This document shows positions 3,602 through 42,940 of a stretch of 47,216 nucleotides of DNA, piece after piece (the stretch's first letter is position 1; every line of letters starts with the position of its first letter). The translations under genes and the position numbers were made by a program. Source of the DNA: a virus; the IMG/VR virus record IMGVR_UViG_3300035156_000359, positions 1 to 47,216 of that record; one strand, written 5' to 3'. The notes beneath the pieces are model-generated. The model saw nothing but the letters and a program-made list of their open reading frames with translations, had not been told where the DNA came from and made no database searches.

Positions 3602-4014
3602 ACGCCCTTTACCTTCTCGACGGTCCGCAGGCTTCCGAGCCCCAGCATCGCCAGCAGGATAGTGCTCATTTCGGTGAAGTCGAATACTGGCAGCGTGATC
3701 GGATGGCCGGCCATGGCCATCCCCACAACTGCGGCCGGGCCCAGGATGAACTTGAAGGCGAAGGCGGCGCCGCACACCCAACCGATGGCCGGGCGCCAGC
3801 CGGCCACGAACAGCGACTGGCTTGCCGCCTCGACCTTGTTGACCTCGATCTGTGCGGTGGCCAGCTTCAGGTCGGCGCCCAGCTGCGCCAGCTCGCCGGC
3901 CTGGGCCATGCGCATCACCTCGAGCTTGGCATCGGCTGCGGCCTTCGGGTCGGGGAACACTCGATCGAACAGGTTGCCGAGGATCGGGATCAGCGTCGTG
4001 ACGAGTGGTGCCAT
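3598..4014 (-). CDS. Phage holin, 3TM family
   Basis: This 138-residue inner-membrane protein probably times lysis. It matches the pattern of the Holin-of-3TMs family: an N-terminal helix (residues 1-16), an amphipathic charged segment (about 25-60), the signature FVAGWRPAIGWVC (about 70-82) leading into a membrane helix, and two more hydrophobic segments, the last around TILLAMLGLGSL. The start at 4014 shares one base with the lysozyme stop (TGATG), so translation is coupled. It is the last gene of the late operon, and its stop overlaps the convergent hicB stop. Confidence 0.88.
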   Translation of the reverse strand: MAPLVTTLIPILGNLFDRVFPDPKAAADAKLEVMRMAQAGELAQLGADLKLATAQIEVNKVEAASQSLFVAGWRPAIGWVCGAAFAFKFILGPAAVVGMAMAGHPITLPVFDFTEMSTILLAMLGLGSLRTVEKVKGV

Positions 4015-30032: not shown

Positions 30033-31069
30033 GGGTTCTGCCTTTGCCGAATGGCGCGTTCAGCCGCGTCGACACGGGCTTGCCAGTCCTCGTAGCTCTC
30101 GTCCGGCCCCTTCGGGTCCGTGCCCTGGGGCTTGCGGATCGCGATCGGTTGCGGCGGCTGGATCGGGCGCCCTGATGCGGTTGCCGGCGGCGGGTTCAGC
30201 AGCTTCTCGACGATCGGCATGAGGTAGTTCGGCGGGATCTTCGCCGTTGGCCCCTTCTGCTCGCGAGCCAGGCCGACAGCGGCGGTCAGCACCTCCATGG
30301 TGATCTTCCGGTCCGTCCAGTCGCGCACGGTGGGATGCGTGAAGGTCGCGTCGACACCGAGCTTGCGCAGGGCGACGGTCAGGATGATCGCGGGGTCGGC
30401 GCTCACTGGCGCGTCTTCGCGAGGCGGCAGCGGGGCAGCACCAGGATGCGAGAATCCGGGGTCATCGAATTCCGGCGGCAACGACGACGCGGGACTACTG
30501 TCCGTTGAGTTGTCGTCGTCGTAAGGTTTTAGTTCTGGTGTATGGGTATTGGGTACTGGTGTCTGGGTAGCCGTTGCAGGCGTTGCAGGTGCCGTTGCAG
30601 GTAACGGCGGGACAGGTGTTGCGGTTGCCGTTGCTGCAACGCGTTTCACAAGCTCCCGCAACTCGTTCATACCGATGTTCCAGGGCGCGTGCTGGCCTGC
30701 GTCGGTCAACACCTTGAACAGGCGCGCACGCTCCTCGCGGTGCCGCTTCATGCGATTGTCCTCGTTCGCCTTCTTCGCTTCGCGTTCAGGTTCGCCGTCA
30801 CGAAAGCGGGCGATCTCGGCATCGCAGCGGCTGTTGTGCCAACCATCCTCGGCCAGCACAAAGAATTCTTCCAGCACCGTTGCGACAGCCTCGCGCTCTT
30901 CCTTCGCCCGTGCACCGACCAGGCGCTGCACGGCCTTGACGTCGACAGGCAGCGGCTTCTCCTGGGCATAGTACTTGCGGATCATGCGGCTGTAGGCGGC
31001 GTCCTCGACGAACGTCAGGTGGGCCGTGGCCTCGGCATAGTCGCCGATGTGGTGTTCGAAGTAGTTCAC
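30029..31069 (-). CDS. DUF1376-domain replication protein
   Basis: This is a 346-residue protein. The N-terminal ~60 residues match DUF1376 (NYFEHHIGDYAEATAHLTF, then YSRMIRKYYAQEKPLP). A basic helical region and a long low-complexity Thr/Pro/Ala linker (about 150-185) follow. A second small domain resembles the DnaT/primosome-type C termini of phage O-like proteins. It probably loads the host helicase. The GTG start at 31069 is chosen from the GGAGGGTAC ribosome site and the GTGA overlap with the Dam gene. Confidence 0.85.
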   Translation of the reverse strand: MNYFEHHIGDYAEATAHLTFVEDAAYSRMIRKYYAQEKPLPVDVKAVQRLVGARAKEEREAVATVLEEFFVLAEDGWHNSRCDAEIARFRDGEPEREAKKANEDNRMKRHREERARLFKVLTDAGQHAPWNIGMNELRELVKRVAATATATPVPPLPATAPATPATATQTPVPNTHTPELKPYDDDNSTDSSPASSLPPEFDDPGFSHPGAAPLPPREDAPVSADPAIILTVALRKLGVDATFTHPTVRDWTDRKITMEVLTAAVGLAREQKGPTAKIPPNYLMPIVEKLLNPPPATASGRPIQPPQPIAIRKPQGTDPKGPDESYEDWQARVDAAERAIRQRQNP

Positions 31070-31941
31070 GTACCCTCCTGCCAGAACAGGCCGGTGCGAT
31101 CGAGTGCGCGCGATGCGGCGGGATTCAGCCAGAGACATTCGGTGCGCATGGCAGTGCCGCGGGCGGCCGAGATTCTCGCCTCGGTGCTCGCCATGGCCCA
31201 TCCTTGCAACGCCCCCAAGTACATCGCGCTGGCATAACCGCTCAGCACGACCATGCCTTTCACCGAGAGCAGCTTGTCCAGCAGCTGGGCGTGGTCGTCG
31301 TCGGTCAGTTCGCAGTCGTAGTACCGGCCGTGCTTGGCGCCGACGTTGCGCGTGCCCATGACATACGGCGGGTCGACGTAGAACAACGTGTCCTCGGCGT
31401 CGTGCTGGTCTATGATCCCCAAGGCCGGACGGTTCTCGATCATGACGCCAGAGAGGCGCGCGCATACTCGAGCGAGTGATTCGGGGAAGCGCGCCCACAG
31501 CTGCTGCGCGGTGCCGTGCTTGCGCCTGGTGTCGACGCGGAATCCAGTCGTGCCTTTCGTGGCGCCGGCCGAGCCGAAACCCATCTCGGCGCGCACCAGG
31601 GTGCGGCGCGCACGCTCAACCGGATCGTTGCTCGGTTCATAGGCGGCATCGAATTCGTCGCGCGCGTAAGGGGTAAGCAGCAGCTGGCCGATCAGGTGGT
31701 CGCACTGGCCAGGATCCCGCAGCACGCGGAACACGTTCACGATATCGCCGTCGAGGTCGTTGTAGACCTCGGCATAGGCGCGTTCCTTCTGCACCAGCAC
31801 ACCGGCGGCGCCGCCGAATGGTTCAACATAGCAGCGGTGAGGCGGGAAATGTTTGATGACCCATGGCGCCAGGCGGAACTTGCCGCCGTGGTACCGCAGG
31901 ACCGGGCGTGTCGGGGCCGCAGTGTTGATGGTCGTGGTCAT
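31066..31941 (-). CDS. dam: Dam-like DNA adenine-N6 methyltransferase (D12 class)
   Basis: This is a 291-residue methylase. It carries the SAM-binding RYHGGK and VEPFGGAAG motifs (residues 16-21 and 39-47) and the catalytic DPPY at 190-193, so it is the alpha-class D12 type. The middle is the target-recognition region. No partner restriction enzyme is beside it, so it is an orphan that may shield phage DNA or adjust regulation. It is coupled to both neighbours by 4-base overlaps. Confidence 0.95.
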   Translation of the reverse strand: MTTTINTAAPTRPVLRYHGGKFRLAPWVIKHFPPHRCYVEPFGGAAGVLVQKERAYAEVYNDLDGDIVNVFRVLRDPGQCDHLIGQLLLTPYARDEFDAAYEPSNDPVERARRTLVRAEMGFGSAGATKGTTGFRVDTRRKHGTAQQLWARFPESLARVCARLSGVMIENRPALGIIDQHDAEDTLFYVDPPYVMGTRNVGAKHGRYYDCELTDDDHAQLLDKLLSVKGMVVLSGYASAMYLGALQGWAMASTEARISAARGTAMRTECLWLNPAASRALDRTGLFWQEGT

Positions 31942-32158: not shown

Positions 32159-32749
32159 TTACGCCTGGTCGACCGCGCTGCGGCGCGCGATCTCGGATTG
32201 CAGGTCGCGCTTGGCGCAGGCGACCGAGTCCTGCACGTCCTGCAGTTCCTGGCACGAACTCTTCAGCTGGTCGACCGAAGCGTCGGGCCCGATGCATAGC
32301 AGCGAGGTCGTGGCCTCGGCCGCTTCCTTGACCAGGCTGCGCAGGTGCGGCGCCACATCCAGCACTGGGCACGGCGCCACCTCGATCAGGCGCAGCTCGA
32401 CGCCCTTTCGAGCCAGGCGCATGTTCTCGAACTTCAGGTAGATATCGATCGGCATGGCCTCCTCGATCGACGCTTCGAAGTTCGCGGGCAGCAGGTTCTT
32501 GTCCTTGGTGACGTCGTCCAGCCAGCGAAAGATGCGCTCGGCGTTCACCTTCTGGCGCTCGTACGCGTCGGTGGTCGGCGGCTCGAAGCGGATGCCGGTC
32601 GTGGCCGGGCCGCCGATGCGCTCGTGGGCCTCGACGATCATCTGGCAGACCGTTTCCCGGCTCCAGCCCTCGCGCTTGCGCATCTCCTCGACGCACTCGC
32701 GGTACATGGCGATTCGGGTCTTCGTGGGATTGTGTGGATTGCTCCGCAT
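32159..32749 (-). CDS. Hypothetical early regulator, CII position
   Basis: This is a 196-residue protein, second gene of the PR operon after cro. The N-terminal part contains YRECVEEMRKREGWSRETVC (about residues 16-35) and a continuing helix that could form a helix-turn-helix. The middle has RIFRWLDDVTKDKNLLP, and the C terminus is helical. Position and general style suggest a CII- or YdaT-like regulator of lysogeny, but no motif proves DNA binding. Confidence 0.7.
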   Translation of the reverse strand: MRSNPHNPTKTRIAMYRECVEEMRKREGWSRETVCQMIVEAHERIGGPATTGIRFEPPTTDAYERQKVNAERIFRWLDDVTKDKNLLPANFEASIEEAMPIDIYLKFENMRLARKGVELRLIEVAPCPVLDVAPHLRSLVKEAAEATTSLLCIGPDASVDQLKSSCQELQDVQDSVACAKRDLQSEIARRSAVDQA

Positions 32750-32872: not shown

Positions 32873-33067
32873 TTACTGTGGCTGAGACTCCGGCGCAGCC
32901 TCTTGGATGGGGCCGAACACATCGGGGCGGGCAAGACGCAGGAACTTCATCTGTGCCCTCGGGATTCCATTGCTGTGCCACTGCGACACCGCCTGAGCAG
33001 TCACCTCGCACAGGGCAGCGGTTTTGGTCGTGCCGCCCAGGCGCTGAATTATTTCGGTAGCGTTCAT
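32873..33067 (-). CDS. cro: Cro/YdaS-like repressor
   Basis: This is a 64-residue DNA-binding protein. MNATEIIQRLGGTTKTAALC and the recognition part VTAQAVSQWHSNGIPRAQM form a Cro-type helix-turn-helix, and a loose C-terminal tail follows. It is divergent from cI, with three operators between them and PR inside those operators. GAGGG lies 6 bases before the ATG. It should repress PRM during lytic growth. Confidence 0.9.
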   Translation of the reverse strand: MNATEIIQRLGGTTKTAALCEVTAQAVSQWHSNGIPRAQMKFLRLARPDVFGPIQEAAPESQPQ

Positions 33068-33156: not shown

Positions 33157-33861
33157 ATGAATTTATTGTCAGAAAGGCTCTTGTGGGCAATCCAGCAGGA
33201 GCAAAAGCGCCGAAATGGCAAGCGTGTTACCAAGGCCGAAATTGCGCGGGCAGCTGGGGTTTCCGATACAGCTGCAGGGAATTGGCTCAAGGGTGACCAT
33301 GGGATCGATGCTCCAAGAGCCAGGGCGGTAGGAACCTATTTGCGTGTGGATCCACTGTGGCTGGAGACCGGCGAAGGCGACCCGACACCACGTGCAGCCT
33401 TGCCTCGCGCGGAGGAACTCGAGTTCGATGACGCCCCTGCGATCTTGCGCAAGCCTCAGCTGATCCCTGTTGTTGGCCGCGTACAAGCTGGTAACGATGG
33501 ACTGTTGAGCATTGACGACTCGGGCAGCGACAATCCGGAAGGTTTTTTGGCGTGGTATGCGACCTGCACTGAAGCTTATGCACTCAGAATTCGTGGCGAG
33601 AGCATGAGCCCGCGTTACCTCCCTGGGGAATTCGTCGGCGTCGATCCATGCTCTGATGTGCTCCCGAGCGACGAAGTTATCGTGCTGCTAAAAGACGGCC
33701 GCCGCATGATCAAGCGGCTTCTATGGATTCGCGACGATCAGGCGTGCTTCGAGTCGGTGAATAAAGACCATGCGAATATCGTGATTGATTGCGACGACAT
33801 TGATCAAATGCACCTGGTAACCGGACATATTCAGAAATCTGCTTTTAGGGCGAACGCTTGA
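33157..33861 (+). CDS. cI: CI-like repressor with LexA/S24 self-cleavage domain
   Basis: This 234-residue lysogeny repressor has an N-terminal HTH (about residues 24-66, VTKAEIARAAGVSDTAAGNW) and a C-terminal S24 domain. The scissile Ala111-Gly112 (RVQAGND), nucleophile Ser149 (GESMSPRYL) and general base Lys186 (RRMIKRLL) are all present, so RecA-stimulated autocleavage and SOS induction are expected. It probably binds the dyads at 33076-33133 and 35464-35522. Its stop overlaps the next start, so the following S24-fold protein is made from the same message. Confidence 0.95.
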   Translation: MNLLSERLLWAIQQEQKRRNGKRVTKAEIARAAGVSDTAAGNWLKGDHGIDAPRARAVGTYLRVDPLWLETGEGDPTPRAALPRAEELEFDDAPAILRKPQLIPVVGRVQAGNDGLLSIDDSGSDNPEGFLAWYATCTEAYALRIRGESMSPRYLPGEFVGVDPCSDVLPSDEVIVLLKDGRRMIKRLLWIRDDQACFESVNKDHANIVIDCDDIDQMHLVTGHIQKSAFRANA

Positions 33862-34268
33862 GGGTGCCAGTCCGGTGCGTAAAGCTCCAATTACGTGCGG
33901 GTGTATCGGGTTTTGATTTAGAGCCAGATATGTCCGTGAGCGGGACTCTAGAAATTCCAGTTCCGACCGGCGCTGATACCCGAGGCCTGCTCGCAGTGCG
34001 CGTGCGCGATCGCGGCATGGAACCTTTGTTCTTCGAGGACGATTGGGTTGTGATCGATACCGGCGATACCGCGCGTCGGAGTCGGGAGGTCTATGCGGTG
34101 AATTGGAACGGCGAGGCGTGCGTCCAGCAACTGGTCGAGCGGGGTGGCCAATGGTATTTGAGCTACGTGAATCAGGATTTCACGCCTATTAACGTGCGCA
34201 GCGGTCAGCTGGACATTGTTGGGCGAGTTGTATATCAGCCGGTTCGAGCGATCGCTGGCAGACTTTAA
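33858..34268 (+). CDS. HTH-less S24/LexA-fold protein with lost catalytic residues
   Basis: This 136-residue protein consists only of the S24 peptidase fold. The core LAVRVRDRGMEPLFFEDDWV aligns with the usual LxVRGDSMEPTLxDGDxV, but glycine (Gly53) replaces the nucleophile Ser. In EACVQQLVER the general-base Lys (VKRL) is replaced by Gln90. The N terminus keeps a cleavage-site-like RAG (residues 13-15), and the C terminus has the family ending LDIVGRVVY. The start is TTG at 33858, overlapping the cI stop, or GTG at 33864. It cannot be a protease of the usual kind. It may pair with the CI C-terminal domain and change cooperativity or cleavage, or bind another S24 protein such as LexA or UmuD. 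Confidence 0.8.
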   Translation: MRVPVRCVKLQLRAGVSGFDLEPDMSVSGTLEIPVPTGADTRGLLAVRVRDRGMEPLFFEDDWVVIDTGDTARRSREVYAVNWNGEACVQQLVERGGQWYLSYVNQDFTPINVRSGQLDIVGRVVYQPVRAIAGRL

Positions 34269-34309: not shown

Positions 34310-34633
34310 ATGGCTCTAATTGCTTGCCCAGAGTGCTCGACTCAAGTTAGTGACCAAGCACTAGCCTGTCCGAGTTGCGGCGCTAGGCCGGCAAAACCTA
34401 GAAAGTCGCGTGCGCTCTTTTATGCTTTTATCGGGTTCCTCGCTATTCTCGTGACGTTGGTTTTAATTAAGGATCCAGACTCCAGCGAACGATTCGATGC
34501 CCGGCAGTCTATATCGACATGTTGGGACGAGCAAAAGCGAAAGTCACACACCCCCGGAGAGGCTCGATTTATTGCGGGTGCGTGCGAAAGGATGGAAGAG
34601 AAGTACCGAACCAAGTACGGGCGCAACCCTTAA
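34310..34633 (+). CDS. Zinc-ribbon single-pass membrane protein
   Basis: This is a 107-residue protein. The N terminus is a zinc ribbon with two CxxC pairs (CPECS at residues 6-10, CPSCG at 20-24). A basic linker and one membrane helix (about 36-53, FYAFIGFLAILVTLVLI) follow, then a short charged domain with two Cys. The ribbon is likely cytoplasmic. It is the third gene of the cI operon, the place where lambda carries rexB, also a membrane protein. A sensing or exclusion role is possible, inferred from position and topology only. Confidence 0.8.
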   Translation: MALIACPECSTQVSDQALACPSCGARPAKPRKSRALFYAFIGFLAILVTLVLIKDPDSSERFDARQSISTCWDEQKRKSHTPGEARFIAGACERMEEKYRTKYGRNP

Positions 34634-34677: not shown

Positions 34678-35058
34678 ATGGAAGATACAGATAAGCGTTC
34701 AGTAATGAACGCTATGGCGATGTTCGAAAGCCGCGCTCGGGAAATCATCAACCGGATTGACGGTAAGCGTAGCATTGGTGCTTTTGAAAAAGATGAGCTG
34801 CAGTCGCTTTACACAGGGTTGAAGGAGGACGTTAAGAGCGCCGCGAAACTCGGCAAGGTCCACAAAGACCGAGAGGACCAGACAGATTGGGAGCGCTGCT
34901 ACTTCATGCCGGCCGTCTCGAAAGCGCGAGACGGATTGCGCGCCAAGACCAACAGCCATCCAGTTACTTCGAACTGGATTGGCTCACTCCTCGATGCCGC
35001 CGGTGAATTTAGTTATTACCTTTCGATGATTGAAAGGGATCACCCAGAAGATCAATAA
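34678..35058 (+). CDS. Hypothetical helical protein of the cI operon
   Basis: This is a 126-residue, charged, mostly helical protein starting MEDTDKRSVMNAMAMFESRA. It contains EIINRIDGKRSIGAFEKDEL and ends LSMIERDHPEDQ. No family is recognised. It is the last gene before the strong plus-strand terminator at 35366, and its 3' end overlaps the convergent gene 35009-35353 by 50 bases. It is somewhat AT-richer than the late genes. Constant expression in the lysogen is inferred from its place in the cI operon. Confidence 0.7.
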   Translation: MEDTDKRSVMNAMAMFESRAREIINRIDGKRSIGAFEKDELQSLYTGLKEDVKSAAKLGKVHKDREDQTDWERCYFMPAVSKARDGLRAKTNSHPVTSNWIGSLLDAAGEFSYYLSMIERDHPEDQ

Positions 35059-36342: not shown

Positions 36343-37194
36343 ATGGAATCGAAATTCGAGGCGGGCCACACCGTCTACAGCGAAAAGGGTGAGCGGGCCG
36401 AGTACGTCACCGCCAGCGGCGATGGTCATATTGTCCGTCCGATGGTCGAGAGCTACGACGACGAATCCGGCGAGTCCTACGACCACGTTTGCGATCCAGC
36501 CGTCTGGCGTCACGTCTTCCACCAGGAGCCCGTGGCCAAGTTCAGCGACCAGCTGAAGGGGCTGCACGAGCAGATCGCCGCCGCCAAGGGCGAGCGCGAC
36601 CAGCTGCAGCGCGAGGACTATCAGCGTCAGCGCGAGCGTGCCGAGAAGCTGAAGCGCTTCGCCATCCTGGACAACGTCGAGGCCTTTATCGACGGGAAGA
36701 TCACCCACTACGTTCAGCGGGAATACTCCGCGCCGCCGTGCATCATCGACGTAGCGGAAGCGGTGAGCAGCGAGAACAGCAACTACCGCAAAGACTTGCG
36801 TCTGCTCACATTGGGCGGCTCTCTCGTCAATGGTGACTTGAAATGGGTTTTGAATCGGTACTCGGACGGCAGCGGCAATGCCAGCACCGTAGTGCCTTGC
36901 ACCTCGTACGATCAGGCTGCTGAGCTTGTCAAGACGGCAGTCATCCAGCATTTCGCTGGCAGCCGGCCGGACCACGAAAAACGACAGGATTGGATCGACT
37001 CGGCTGACAAGCTGGGTGTTTCCGTGCCTGAGGAATACCGCCGCGCTGTTGTGCGCCATCGCATTCTTTCGATTGAACAGAACTCGGGTTACATGCGTAA
37101 GCAGGCCCAGGACTATGCCGATTCGGTTGCAAAAACCGACGCCGAGCTTGCCGCGCTACGCGCCTATCTCGAAGCCCCGGCAGGTGCCGCATGA
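36343..37194 (+). CDS. Hypothetical coiled-coil early protein
   Basis: This is a 283-residue protein. A small beta-rich N-terminal domain (VYSEKGERAEYVTASGDGHI, HVCDPAVWRHVF) is followed by a coiled coil (about 70-110, LKGLHEQIAAAKGERDQLQR), a central alpha/beta region and a helical C terminus. The start at 36343 is chosen because AGGAGAGCAGG precedes it. An in-frame ATG at 36274 lacks such a site. The function is unknown; it may belong to the replication/recombination set with the next genes. Confidence 0.78.
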   Translation: MESKFEAGHTVYSEKGERAEYVTASGDGHIVRPMVESYDDESGESYDHVCDPAVWRHVFHQEPVAKFSDQLKGLHEQIAAAKGERDQLQREDYQRQRERAEKLKRFAILDNVEAFIDGKITHYVQREYSAPPCIIDVAEAVSSENSNYRKDLRLLTLGGSLVNGDLKWVLNRYSDGSGNASTVVPCTSYDQAAELVKTAVIQHFAGSRPDHEKRQDWIDSADKLGVSVPEEYRRAVVRHRILSIEQNSGYMRKQAQDYADSVAKTDAELAALRAYLEAPAGAA

Positions 37195-37307
37195 TCGCCC
37201 GCTTCCGCAAGCACTACCGCACCCAATACCAGCTGTCCCTGCTCGCCGGCTTCGGCCCGCGCAAGGCCGCCCGTCGCGCGCTGCGCACCTACATTTTCGG
37301 CTTTTAA
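37191..37307 (+). CDS. 38-residue basic protein
   Basis: This short gene runs MIARFRKHYRTQYQLSLLAG to RRALRTYIFGF. It is strongly basic and helical, of the type of tiny phage proteins found among early recombination genes. It overlaps the previous stop by ATGA and lies 14 bases before the annealing-protein gene. Translation coupling and the clean composition support it; the function is unknown. Confidence 0.62.
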   Translation: MIARFRKHYRTQYQLSLLAGFGPRKAARRALRTYIFGF

Positions 37308-37321
37308 CCACGAAGGAAACC

Positions 37322-38089
37322 ATGAACGAACTCACCACCCAGGGCGAACCGACGTTCTCCCTTTCCCCGCGCAACCTGGCTGAGGCCATGGAGTTCGCGA
37401 AGGTCATCGCCTCTTCGGACATGGTCCCGAAGGATTACATCAACAAGCCGGGGAACGTGCTGGTGGCGGTGCAGACCGGCGCCGAGCTGGGCCTGAAGCC
37501 GATGCAGTCGCTGCAGGGTATCTCGGTCATCAACGGCCGCCCGGGCGTCTGGGGCGATGCGATGTGGGCTCTGATCATCAGCCATCCTGAGTACGTGGAT
37601 TCGGTCGAAGAGAAGACCGACACGTCCTGCACGATCACACTGACGCGGCGCGGCCGCAGCCCGGTTGTCGTCACCTTCAACATGGAAGACGCCAAGAAGG
37701 CAGGCCTGGCCGGCAAGCAGGGCCCGTGGCAGACGGCGCCGAAGCGGATGTTGCAGATGCGCGCCCGTGCATTCGCCGCGCGCGACCTCTTCGCCGACGC
37801 GCTTAAGGGCATCAAATCGGTCGAGGAGCTGCGCGACTATCCGGACGAGCGCGTCGAGCGCGACATCACGCCGGCACCAGCCGCAGCCGCGCCGGCGCCG
37901 CGCGCAGTGGCCGCCCCGCTCCAGGAGTGCACGCCGGAGAAGTTCGCCGAAAACTCGGCGGCCTGGCGCGACATGATCCTGTCCGGGAAGAAGACGCCGG
38001 CGGCGCTGATCTCGATGCTCAGCACGAAGACCATCCTCACCGAAGACCAGAAGCTGACCATCGACAGCTGGGCCCACGAAGGCGAATAA
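37322..38089 (+). CDS. Putative single-strand annealing protein (RecT-position)
   Basis: This is a 255-residue protein of a widespread phage family. Recognisable parts are NLAEAMEFAKVIASSDMVPK (about residues 18-37), VQTGAELGLKPMQSLQGISV (about 50-69), NGRPGVWGDAMWAL and MEDAKKAGLAGKQGPWQTAP, then RMLQMRARAFAARDLF. The C terminus is a linker plus a small helical domain. It lies directly before a YqaJ exonuclease, the usual exonuclease/annealing-protein pair for homologous recombination. The annealing function is inferred from this pairing and the family's usual context. Confidence 0.75.
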   Translation: MNELTTQGEPTFSLSPRNLAEAMEFAKVIASSDMVPKDYINKPGNVLVAVQTGAELGLKPMQSLQGISVINGRPGVWGDAMWALIISHPEYVDSVEEKTDTSCTITLTRRGRSPVVVTFNMEDAKKAGLAGKQGPWQTAPKRMLQMRARAFAARDLFADALKGIKSVEELRDYPDERVERDITPAPAAAAPAPRAVAAPLQECTPEKFAENSAAWRDMILSGKKTPAALISMLSTKTILTEDQKLTIDSWAHEGE

Positions 38090-38099
38090 GGAGAAGACC

Positions 38100-39878
38100 A
38101 TGCAGATTCACGACCTCACCCAGGGCACGCCCGAATGGCAGCAGTACCGGCTGGAGAAGTTCGGCGCCAGTGAGGCGGCCGCCATGCTCGGCATCTCGAT
38201 GTTGGTCAAGCGCAACGAGCTGCTGCACATGAAGGCCACCGGCACCGCCCAGGAGTTCAGCGACTGGGTGCAGAAGAACGTCCTCGACTATGGCCACCAC
38301 GTGGAAGCGCTGGCGCGCCCGCTGGTCGAAGAGCTGATCGGCACCGAGCTGTACCCCGTTACCTGCTCGGATGGGCGCCTGTCGGCGTCGTGCGACGGTC
38401 TGACCATGGCGGAAGACGTCGCCTTCGAGCACAAGCAGTGGAACCAGGCGCTGGCCGATGCCGTGGCCGGCGGCCAGCTGCCGGACGAGTACATGCCGCA
38501 GTGCCAGCAGATCATGATGGTGACCGGCGCCCGCAAGGTTGTGTTCGTGTGTTCCGACGGCACGTTCGACAATTTCGTCTATGTCTGGGTGCTGCCGGAT
38601 CCGGCCTGGCAGGCGCGCATCCGCGCCGGCTGGGCGCAGTTCGAAATCGACCTGGCCGAATACCAGCACGTCGAAGTCTTGCCGGCGCCAGTCGCCGCCG
38701 CGGTGCAGGACCTGCCCGCGCTGTCGATCCGCGTCGACGGCCAGCTGACCCTCAACCACAACCTGGTGGTGTTTGGCGAGAAGCTGCAGTCGTTCATCAA
38801 GGACATCGACACGAACCCGAGCGATGACCAGGCCTTCGCCGACGCCGAGCAGGCGATCAAGGTGATGGAGCGCGCCGAGGACGCCCTGGGCGCCGCCGAA
38901 GCGTCGGCCCTGGGCCAAATCTCGACGGTGGACGACATGGTGCGCACGGTCGCCAGCTACAAGGACCTGGCCCGCAAGACGCGCCTGATGCTGGAGAAGG
39001 TGGTCAAGGCGCGCAAGGAAACCATCCGCGTCGAGATCCAGCAGGCCGGCAAGGACAAAGCGGCCGCGCACATCGCCGCGCTGAATACGCGCCTGGGCAA
39101 GCCGTACATGCCGGCGATCCCGGTCGACTTCGCCGGCGTCATGAAGGGCAAGAAGACCGTCACCAGCCTGCGCGACGCGGTCGACACTGAACTGGCGCGC
39201 TTCAAGATCGCGGCCAACGCCGTCGCCGACCGCATCCAGATCAACCTGGGCACGCTGCGCGAGCTGGCCGCAGCCCACGCCTTCCTGTTCGCCGACACCG
39301 CGTCGATCGTGCTGAAGGACGCCGACGACCTGACCGCCCTGGTAAAGATGCGCATCGCTGAGCACGAGGCCGCCGAGGCGGCGAAAGCCGAAGCCCTGCG
39401 CGCCAAGATCGCCGAGGAAGAGCGCGTAAAGGCCGAGAAGGCCGTTGCCGACGCCGAGCGCGCGCGCGTCGCCGCCGAAACGAAGCGTCAGCTGGACGAG
39501 CAGGCCGCCGTCGTGGCCGCAGCGCGCGCCCAGCAGGAAGCGGCGGCACGCGCCACGCCTGCGCCAGCTGCAGAACCGTCGCCACGCCCAGCAACGGCAG
39601 TGTCCCTCGCCGGCACTGATGCCACTCCTGCGCCAGCGCAGGTGATGCCGATCGCGGCCGCGCGCCCAGCAGCACCGACCAGCGCGCCGAGCCTGCGCCT
39701 CGGCCAGATCGCCGAGCGCCTGGGCTTCAGCCTGACCGCCGACTTCCTCGCGTCCCTGGGCTTCGCCGCTGCCGGCCGCGAGCGCGCTGCGGTGCTGTAC
39801 CACGAAGCCGACTTCCAGTCGATGTGCGCCGCGCTGATCCGCCACATCAGCGCCGCCGCCCAGGCGAAGGCTGCGTGA
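38100..39878 (+). CDS. YqaJ-type exonuclease with long C-terminal extension
   Basis: This is a 592-residue protein. The first ~210 residues are the YqaJ/lambda-exonuclease-like domain: GTPEWQQYRLEKFGASEAAA, then Glu69 (YGHHVEA), Asp99 (SASCDGL) and Glu110-x-Lys112 (EHKQW) as metal and catalytic residues, and YMPQCQQIMMV. It digests one DNA strand for the annealing protein. Residues about 210-460 are coiled-coil-rich, about 500-560 are Ala/Pro-rich linker, and the last ~60 form a small helical domain. The extension is much longer than in standard YqaJ proteins. Confidence 0.9.
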   Translation: MQIHDLTQGTPEWQQYRLEKFGASEAAAMLGISMLVKRNELLHMKATGTAQEFSDWVQKNVLDYGHHVEALARPLVEELIGTELYPVTCSDGRLSASCDGLTMAEDVAFEHKQWNQALADAVAGGQLPDEYMPQCQQIMMVTGARKVVFVCSDGTFDNFVYVWVLPDPAWQARIRAGWAQFEIDLAEYQHVEVLPAPVAAAVQDLPALSIRVDGQLTLNHNLVVFGEKLQSFIKDIDTNPSDDQAFADAEQAIKVMERAEDALGAAEASALGQISTVDDMVRTVASYKDLARKTRLMLEKVVKARKETIRVEIQQAGKDKAAAHIAALNTRLGKPYMPAIPVDFAGVMKGKKTVTSLRDAVDTELARFKIAANAVADRIQINLGTLRELAAAHAFLFADTASIVLKDADDLTALVKMRIAEHEAAEAAKAEALRAKIAEEERVKAEKAVADAERARVAAETKRQLDEQAAVVAAARAQQEAAARATPAPAAEPSPRPATAVSLAGTDATPAPAQVMPIAAARPAAPTSAPSLRLGQIAERLGFSLTADFLASLGFAAAGRERAAVLYHEADFQSMCAALIRHISAAAQAKAA

Positions 39879-40874: not shown

Positions 40875-41270
40875 ATGGCGCGCGGACCTGTGCAACACGG
40901 CGCGCTGGGCAGCAAGACAGCACAGTGCGCCGCGCGCGATGCGGTCGTGGCCAAGGTCACGGAACTGCTGCGGGAGGGACCGAAGACCGTGGCGGAGATG
41001 TATCCGCACGTGGTTTGCCTTCGGCCCACTTTTTCGAATTATCTGGCCCACATGCACAAGAAGCTGCGCCTGATCCACATGACGGGCGCCTACCGGAACC
41101 GCGCCGAGCTGTGGGCGTGGGGTCCAGACCCGAAGCTGGCGTCCGTGGACGACGAGATCGACCAGGCATTCGCCGTGCGTAGGGGCGTCGGCCCAGCGCG
41201 GCAGATTGGCATGCGTCGGGATTCACTGGTGGCGGCGCTGTTCGGACCGGCGCCGGGAGCAGCGGCATGA
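40875..41270 (+). CDS. Putative winged-helix-like protein
   Basis: This is a 131-residue protein. Residues about 17-85 (DAVVAKVTELLREGPKTVAE, MYPHVVCLRPTFSNYLAHMH) look like a winged helix: three helices followed by strands (KLRLIHMTGAYRNRAELWAW). The C-terminal tail is flexible and basic. DNA binding is plausible but not proven. The stop overlaps the methylase start (ATGA). Confidence 0.65.
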   Translation: MARGPVQHGALGSKTAQCAARDAVVAKVTELLREGPKTVAEMYPHVVCLRPTFSNYLAHMHKKLRLIHMTGAYRNRAELWAWGPDPKLASVDDEIDQAFAVRRGVGPARQIGMRRDSLVAALFGPAPGAAA

Positions 41271-42940
41271 AGCGCGACCTCATGACGCTGGGGCTCGACT
41301 TGGGCCACGAGCTCATCATCGACAACTTCGCCGGCGGCGGCGGGACGAGCACCGGCCTTGAGGCCGCTTTCGGCCGCCCGGTCGACATCGCGATCAACCA
41401 CGACCCCGAGGCGCTGGCAATGCACGCGATCAACCACCCGCACACGAAGCACCTGTGCGAGAGCGTGTGGGACGTCGACCCGATCAAGGTGACGAACAAC
41501 CTGCCGGTGGCGTTGGTGTGGTTGTCGCCCGACTGCAAACATTTCAGCAAAGCCAAGGGCGGCCGTCCGGTAGAAAAGAACATTCGTGGCTTGGCCTGGG
41601 TGACGATGCGCTGGGCGGCGAAGTGCAAGCCGCGGGTGATCATGCTTGAGAACGTAGAGGAGTTCCAGACCTGGGGCCCGCTCAAGATGGTGATGGTGGA
41701 CGGCGAGCCGACGTGGTTTCCGGACCCGGCCAAGAAGGGCGTTACCTTCCGCAGCTTCGTGCGCCAACTGGAGGGCCACGGCTACAAGGTTGGCTTCAGG
41801 GAGCTGCGCGCCAGCGAGCACAACACCCCGACGATCCGGAAGCGATTTTTCCTGGTGGCGCGCCGCGACGGCATCCCCATCGGCTGGCCCAAGGCATCGC
41901 ACGGTGCGCGCGACCTGCCGGCCGTCCTAGCGGGAAAAATGAGCCCGTTCCGCACCGCGGCAGAGTGCATCGACTGGTCGATCCCGTGCCCTTCCATCTT
42001 CAGCCGCAAGCGTCCGCTGGCCGAGAACACGCTGCGCCGAGTGGCCAAGGGCATCATGCGTTACGTGGTCGAAGCCGAAAAGCCGTTCGTGGTGCCGCAT
42101 GGCCCGATCCTCGTCTCACCTTTCCTGAACGAGCACGCGAACGCCAGCACCCAGCGTGTGATGCCGGCCGACGAACCACTGCGCACCATCTGCGCACAAG
42201 TCAAGGGCGGGCAATTCGGCTTGGTGCAGGCCTTCTTGGCCAAGCACTACACCGGCGTGGTGGGCTCCAGCCTGGGTGACCCGATCGGCACGATCACATC
42301 GAGCGACCATCACAGCTTGGTTACGGCGCACCTGACGAAATTCCGCACTGGCTCGACCGGCAGCGACTTGGTCGACCCGATGCCTACGATTACGGCGGGG
42401 CCGAAGGAGAACCCCGCCGGCGCGCCGCACGCGCTGGGGCTGGTGACGAGCAACCTGGTGAAGCTGCGCGGCACCAGCTGCGCGGCCAGCATGGACGAGC
42501 CGCTGCACACGATCAGCGCACAGGGCCAGCACCACGCGGAAGTGCGCGCATTCCTGATCAAGTACTACGGCGCCGACCAGGACCCGCGTCTCGAGGAACC
42601 GCTGCACACTATCACAACGAAGCACCGCTTCGGGCTGGTGACAATTCACGGCCAGGACTACGAGATCGTCGACATCGGTCTGCGCATGTTAGAGCCGCAC
42701 GAGCTGTACCGCGCGCAAGGTTTCCCGCCTGACTATGTGATCGCCGAAATTCCCGATCCGAAGCTGCTGTTTGTCAACGGGCACCAGGTGGAAGGCGACC
42801 CGCTCAAGCTGCCGCGCGTGAAGCTGCCGAAATCGTCGCAGGTGCGCATGTGCGGCAACAGCGTGTGCCCGCCGCTGTCGGAGGCCCTGATCCGCGCGAA
42901 CTTCCAGCACGAGCGCGAGATGGCGCGGGAGGCAGCATGA
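41267..42940 (+). CDS. Phage-type C5 cytosine DNA methyltransferase
   Basis: This is a 557-residue methylase. Motif I is FAGGGGTSTGLEAAFG (residues 21-36). The catalytic Cys90 lies in SPDCKHFSKAKGG, where the usual PPCQ is PDCK. The ENV motif is at 128-130. Residues about 260-470 hold a chain of related segments containing DEPLRTI / DPIGTI / DPMPTI / DEPLHTI / EEPLHTI, probably the target-recognition part. Motifs IX-X follow (LRMLEPHELYRAQGFPPDYV, MCGNSVCPPLSEALI). No restriction enzyme is adjacent, so it is an orphan methylase likely to protect phage DNA. Confidence 0.92.
   Translation: MKRDLMTLGLDLGHELIIDNFAGGGGTSTGLEAAFGRPVDIAINHDPEALAMHAINHPHTKHLCESVWDVDPIKVTNNLPVALVWLSPDCKHFSKAKGGRPVEKNIRGLAWVTMRWAAKCKPRVIMLENVEEFQTWGPLKMVMVDGEPTWFPDPAKKGVTFRSFVRQLEGHGYKVGFRELRASEHNTPTIRKRFFLVARRDGIPIGWPKASHGARDLPAVLAGKMSPFRTAAECIDWSIPCPSIFSRKRPLAENTLRRVAKGIMRYVVEAEKPFVVPHGPILVSPFLNEHANASTQRVMPADEPLRTICAQVKGGQFGLVQAFLAKHYTGVVGSSLGDPIGTITSSDHHSLVTAHLTKFRTGSTGSDLVDPMPTITAGPKENPAGAPHALGLVTSNLVKLRGTSCAASMDEPLHTISAQGQHHAEVRAFLIKYYGADQDPRLEEPLHTITTKHRFGLVTIHGQDYEIVDIGLRMLEPHELYRAQGFPPDYVIAEIPDPKLLFVNGHQVEGDPLKLPRVKLPKSSQVRMCGNSVCPPLSEALIRANFQHEREMAREAA

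Follow-up and report, generated by a model that had tools for sequence, protein, structure and literature searches.

An HTH-less, catalytically dead S24 protein encoded beside phage lysogeny repressors, and its possible role as a competitor for activated RecA

Introduction

Prophage induction is usually pictured as a contest between activated RecA (RecA*) and a self-cleaving repressor. In the laboratory, this contest has been shifted by mCI, which consists of residues 101-229 of lambda CI with the substitutions A152T, P158T and K192A (PDB 2ho0/2hnf; on RecA, 8gmu). It was shown that mCI binds RecA-ssDNA with a Kd of 36 nM and delays the cleavage of LexA (PMC6363387). It blocks SOS induction in a dose-dependent manner, and at about 500 copies per cell induction was nearly abolished (PMC6363387). 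For LexA(K156A), the C-terminal domain was the only protein in its study for which a stable binding to RecA* was identified (PMC3834820).

S24 proteins without an HTH are represented in nature by UmuD and UmuD', of which UmuD has an intact Ser-Lys dyad and works together with UmuC. The HumD protein of phage P1 is likewise an S24 protein without an HTH. An inactive paralogue of a Ser-Lys protease that is kept in the genome is known from Staphylococcus aureus, where SpsA accompanies SpsB; these proteins belong to the same superfamily, but to the type I signal peptidase family, are membrane bound and have no role in lysogeny. Two further small proteins act together with a LexA/UmuD-type repressor, GIL01 gp7 and Acinetobacter DdrR, which are not known to be S24 proteins. 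Their partners have been identified, while RecA* and CI are candidate partners for the protein described here. For gp7, it was shown that LexA autocleavage is prevented (PMC6182141).

This paper describes a family of natural S24 proteins which combine the absence of an HTH with the absence of the dyad, and which are encoded by the second gene of the lysogeny operon in Massilia prophages.

The lysogeny operon of the window

The DNA stretch analysed here, referred to as the window, is a virus record of 47 kb (47,216 nt, IMGVR_UViG_3300035156_000359). It represents a temperate tailed phage, with genes for a terminase, a major head protein, a tape measure protein and RecE- and RecT-like proteins. 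The terminase shares 88-89% identity with proteins in one Massilia genome, which makes Massilia or a near relative the probable host. The lysogeny region contains the following features:

32159..32749, minus strand: CII-like activator, divergent from CI (phrog_163, 4.7e-15)
32873..33067, minus strand: Cro-like repressor, divergent from CI (phrog_8008, 4.2e-14; P22_Cro, 1.3e-06, slightly below the Pfam cut-off)
33157..33861, plus strand: CI-type lysogeny repressor, 234 aa, HTH and S24 domains, class A
33858..33861, plus strand: TTGA overlap of the CI stop and the pseudo-protease start, read from the sequence
33858..34268, plus strand: HTH-less dead S24 protein (pseudo-protease), 136 aa, TTG start
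34310..34633, plus strand: zinc-ribbon protein with one hydrophobic stretch (phrog_23817, 6.7e-14), the next gene 3' of the pseudo-protease

The window CI has retained both catalytic residues (in the motifs GESM and MIKRL) and a QAG cleavage motif. Its stop codon shares the TTGA with the TTG start at 33858, as had been noticed in a first-pass annotation of this DNA, and a translational coupling of the two genes is likely. The AGGG located 7 nt 5' of the TTG could plausibly serve as the ribosome site. In scans for promoters and terminators the counts were at chance level, and a search of Rfam gave no match. The identity of a defence-system gene was rejected, since PADLOC gave no match for the pseudo-protease. 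The zinc-ribbon gene is followed by a gene for a phrog_35260 protein with no assigned function (34678-35058); both genes are possibly also expressed in the lysogen.

Predicted fold and absence of the catalytic dyad

The protein encoded at 33858-34268 consists of an S24 domain only (PF00717, E-value 4.8e-16, 58.9 bits with a cut-off of 23.3), and it also matches the phrog_4 repressors (9.5e-18). The PF00717 domain was identified in 27 of 27 HTH-less members at a threshold of 0.001. An AlphaFold2 model based on a 106-row alignment reached a pLDDT of 86.6 and a pTM of 0.81, and replaced an earlier model from a 10-row alignment with a pLDDT of 52, which was set aside. The model matches the structures of LexA, lambda CI and UmuD', with a Z-score of 16.0 for 3k2z and of 13.4-13.5 for the lambda CI fragments (2ho0, 2hnf, and 8gmu on RecA). 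The predicted fold is thus that of the LexA/CI C-terminal domain.

The polypeptide starts only 13 residues before the Ala-Gly of its LRAG cleavage motif (residues 12-15) and has no N-terminal DNA-binding domain; in its HTH-less relatives, too, there is no room for an HTH before this motif. In the alignment, Gly53 takes the place of LexA Ser119 and Gln90 that of LexA Lys156, so that the Ser-Lys dyad is absent. From its sequence, the protein is therefore an HTH-less and catalytically dead S24 protein, and the first-pass description of a complete S24/LexA-fold module that has lost both the DNA-binding domain and the catalytic pair was confirmed. The residues D51, R52, W63 and W83 are characteristic of the clade described below, and compared to its relatives the window protein has a deletion of 4 residues near residue 37.

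Conservation and origin

IMG/VR and GTDB genomes were scanned for relatives, and the resulting tree contains 31 distinct HTH-less proteins, including the one from the window. In all 31, the Ser position is a Gly and the Lys position is never Lys, but mostly Gln, followed by Ala and Thr. The equivalent of LexA Gly117 is Asp in 28 of the 31, the following position is Arg or Gln in 30, and W63 and W83, which are absent or rare among the active relatives, are invariant. The LRAG cleavage motif has been kept in all of them. By comparison, both Ser and Lys are present in 29 of 29 full-length relatives. Intermediates, either HTH-less and active or dead and with an HTH, were not seen among these sequences, except for L064, a hit which is cut by the end of its contig.

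In the tree, all HTH-less proteins group in a single clade (support 100/99), and the nearest kin of this clade are full-length CI repressors of other, Massilia-type phages, all with Ser and Lys. The tree indicates a single origin of the pseudo-protease, which would have arisen from a phage CI repressor that lost its HTH and both catalytic residues. These full-length repressors are referred to as family C (phrog_4 / PF00717; for example L013-L023 and L040-L061). Over the S24 domain they mostly share 50-60% identity with the window pseudo-protease, together with the Ala-Gly cleavage motif and the C-terminal strand, and differ from it in every case by an HTH-bearing N-terminal part and an intact Ser/Lys pair. 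The identity to the CI domain of its own operon is only about 26%. Since the nearest kin are the CIs of other phages, a direct origin by duplication of the own CI was rejected.

The dN/dS values of 0.065-0.12 in the closest HTH-less pairs indicate strong purifying selection. With 31 proteins in a single clade under such selection, recent decay was ruled out, and the comparative data describe the pseudo-protease as an old, maintained protein. It is therefore highly improbable that the gene is a functionless, decaying remnant of a CI gene. One relative is indeed frameshifted and some class A loci do not contain the gene, but 31 divergent copies are intact, dN/dS is 0.07-0.12 in close pairs, and the new residues G53, W63 and W83 are invariant in a monophyletic group. 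The first-pass annotation had raised the possibility that homologues keep the Ser/Lys pair or that the fold is not S24, and neither was found; its proposal of a pseudo-protease was borne out. Being conserved though dead, the protein is evidently kept for a task other than cutting.

An indication of which parts have been kept was obtained from the ratio of between-group to within-group identity for the HTH-less clade and its active relatives. This ratio is 0.93 for the cleavage segment (residues 8-25) and 0.94 for the C-terminal strand (residues 118-136, the dimer strand by homology), in contrast to 0.02 for six wholly switched columns at or around the active site, which were chosen because they differ between the groups. 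The docking parts therefore have been kept and the cutting parts lost.

The HTH-less S24 layout could also suggest an S24 partner directed at the host, for example a UmuD'-like polymerase manager, and the UmuD-like phrog_811 is weakly matched by 24 of 27 members. We consider this role very unlikely, as the closest sequences are CI repressors rather than UmuD, the gene is located in the lysogeny operon, and no protein of the UmuC/DinB family (PF00817) was found on the window and seven related records, although a host polymerase could serve such a partner.

Neighbouring repressors

Directly upstream of the pseudo-protease, 28 of the 31 loci encode an HTH-S24 CI in which both Ser and Lys are intact, and in most relatives the two genes share 1-4 nt or are separated by a few nt. 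These CIs carry many different HTHs and fall into two dissimilar C-terminal classes, with the motif GESMSPRYLPGE in class A and EG-SM-P-F-PGDR in class B. In the remaining loci, L029, L031 and L096, the upstream gene codes for an Arc-type ribbon-helix-helix protein, which in L031 and L096 occupies the divergent position, facing HTH and CII-like genes. On these three contigs (44-66 kb), the pseudo-protease is the sole S24 protein found. The class of the upstream repressor switches at least five times on the tree. The pseudo-protease is thus always located 3' of a lysogeny repressor, while the type of this repressor varies (CI-A, CI-B or Arc), and the pairing with a single repressor type that would be expected for a cognate corepressor was not observed.

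Class A CIs also occur without the pseudo-protease (L106, L107 and L113), and in L106 and L113 the zinc-ribbon gene directly follows CI. In L107, the place that the pseudo-protease has in relatives is taken by an ORF of 96 aa without a Pfam match (3645-3935), which overlaps with the stop of the CI gene. L118 contains a decayed copy after an intact class A CI, with a frameshift about 40 residues into the pseudo-protease (3621-3914).

When each CI class is considered by itself, variation in the pseudo-protease follows that in the CI C-terminal domain (Mantel 0.38, p 0.001, and 0.84, p 0.001), and covariation with the CI HTH was seen inside neither class. The covariation with the C-terminal domain is not taken as a proof of contact, because physical linkage can also explain it. 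In the pair L011/L012, the identity is 26% for the HTH, 92% for the C-terminal domain and 88% for the pseudo-protease. A clear case of an immunity-specificity swap at the linker was observed for the CIs upstream of the pseudo-protease in L003-L100, with C-terminal domains that are 87-96% identical and unrelated HTHs (8-29%).

The first-pass annotation had suggested that the protein could pair with the CI of its own operon to give mixed dimers. Such a cognate modulator would assemble into mixed dimers or oligomers with the CI translated from the same message, by way of the CI C-terminal domain, and tune the DNA binding or self-cleavage of this CI, comparable to the corepressor DdrR or gp7, but on an S24 fold. 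This would agree with the directly downstream, usually overlapping position in 28 of 31 loci, with the covariation with the C-terminal domain but not the HTH in both classes, and with HTHs being swapped in L011/L012 while the other two parts stay paired. The proposal is weakened by the three Arc-type loci without another S24 protein, by the two dissimilar C-terminal classes with at least five changes of neighbour class, by the identity of about 26% to the own CI domain, by the class A CIs that lack the gene, and by the linkage that alone may produce the covariation. We therefore regard a role as cognate modulator as unlikely. A partnership limited to the adjacent CI is likewise unlikely from the gene order, because the neighbour varies in its C-terminal class, in its HTH and, with Arc, in its entire type.

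Distribution and co-resident phages

The named hosts of the HTH-less proteins are Massilia, with the gene present in 4 of 62 genomes of this genus. The Massilia genomes also contain one more HTH-less protein, L068, in addition to the 31 in the tree. Samples of 393 genomes at the family level and 399 at the order level gave no further HTH-less match, and a plasmid collection gave no match. Among 50,697 phage records, only a CI-like repressor of VarioGold, which is a full-length gene, and one weak, unannotated match were identified. In agreement with the first-pass annotation, which knew of no named family, searches of the open-licence literature found no description of a family of dead, HTH-less S24 proteins that occur naturally in lysogeny operons. 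The fold itself is known.

The repressor of another phage had been named as a further possible partner, and this, together with a RecA-directed option which the first-pass annotation had not included, fits the data at least as well as dimers with the own CI. As an inter-phage factor, the pseudo-protease would mix through its C-terminal strand with the family C CIs of co-resident or superinfecting Massilia phages and alter repression or cleavage. The idea is favoured because identity in the presumed dimer strand is as high across the two groups as inside each of them, because a family C CI was found in 3 of the 4 Massilia genomes with the gene compared to 10 of the 58 without it (Fisher p 0.026), and because the closest kin are the CIs of other Massilia-type phages. 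However, co-residence should be avoided, since dominant-negative action would lead to induction of the resident prophage, and it is if anything enriched (in small numbers, confounded by prophage load); the shared strand may also be conserved only to preserve the fold or self-dimerisation. An inter-phage role thus appears improbable, to about the same degree as that of a cognate modulator.

Possible competition for activated RecA

The reading that we tentatively favour is that the pseudo-protease may bind RecA* and compete with its cleavage substrates, thereby delaying SOS cleavage or tuning prophage induction. The lysogen would produce the protein along with its immunity repressor, and once bound to RecA* the protein would compete with CI, with LexA and with the CIs of co-resident prophages, resulting in a higher damage threshold or a later induction of the prophage. 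We infer both the binding to RecA* and its consequence for induction from three observations. Like the engineered mCI, the pseudo-protease is predicted to be a CI C-terminal domain of the same fold which retains the cleavage segment, has no HTH and has a dead dyad. Constraint on the cleavage segment and on the C-terminal strand is as strong as in active CIs. The gene is located beside dissimilar repressors including Arc, which argues for a partner that every lysogen contains, such as RecA.

The comparison to mCI also has its limits, since mCI was made in the laboratory from lambda CI, was monomerised and has lost only the Lys. In the natural clade, both Ser and Lys have been lost, the Ser position is mostly preceded by D-R/Q, two Trp are invariant and the C-terminal strand has been kept. 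This presumed dimer strand is needless for a pure RecA decoy, and mCI is monomeric. Further points against a RecA* competitor are that the Arc repressor has no S24 domain, so that shielding it from RecA would be senseless, and the covariation between the pseudo-protease and the CI C-terminal domain, for which partnership or mere adjacency could be the cause.

It is more doubtful, though conceivable, that the family as a whole represents a natural, phage-borne decoy for the RecA* filament, derived from CI and acting as a mobile module of lysogeny operons which raises the SOS threshold for its own and for co-resident prophages with any type of repressor. A dead copy of the cleavable domain, encoded in the same operon beside very different repressors, would add a second layer of control to the switch. 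This raises the question of whether phages produce SOS competitors of their own, comparable to the mCI of the laboratory, and of whether the pseudo-protease decides which prophage of a polylysogen is induced.

The phage with this possibly RecA-directed protein also encodes its own recombination pair, consisting of a RecT-like annealing protein (36926-38089; phrog_561, 5.9e-58) and a RecE-like exonuclease (38100-39878; phrog_7655, 2.9e-175). In addition, two DNA methyltransferases of different families are encoded on the window at 31066-31941 and 41267-42940 (phrog_56 and phrog_116).
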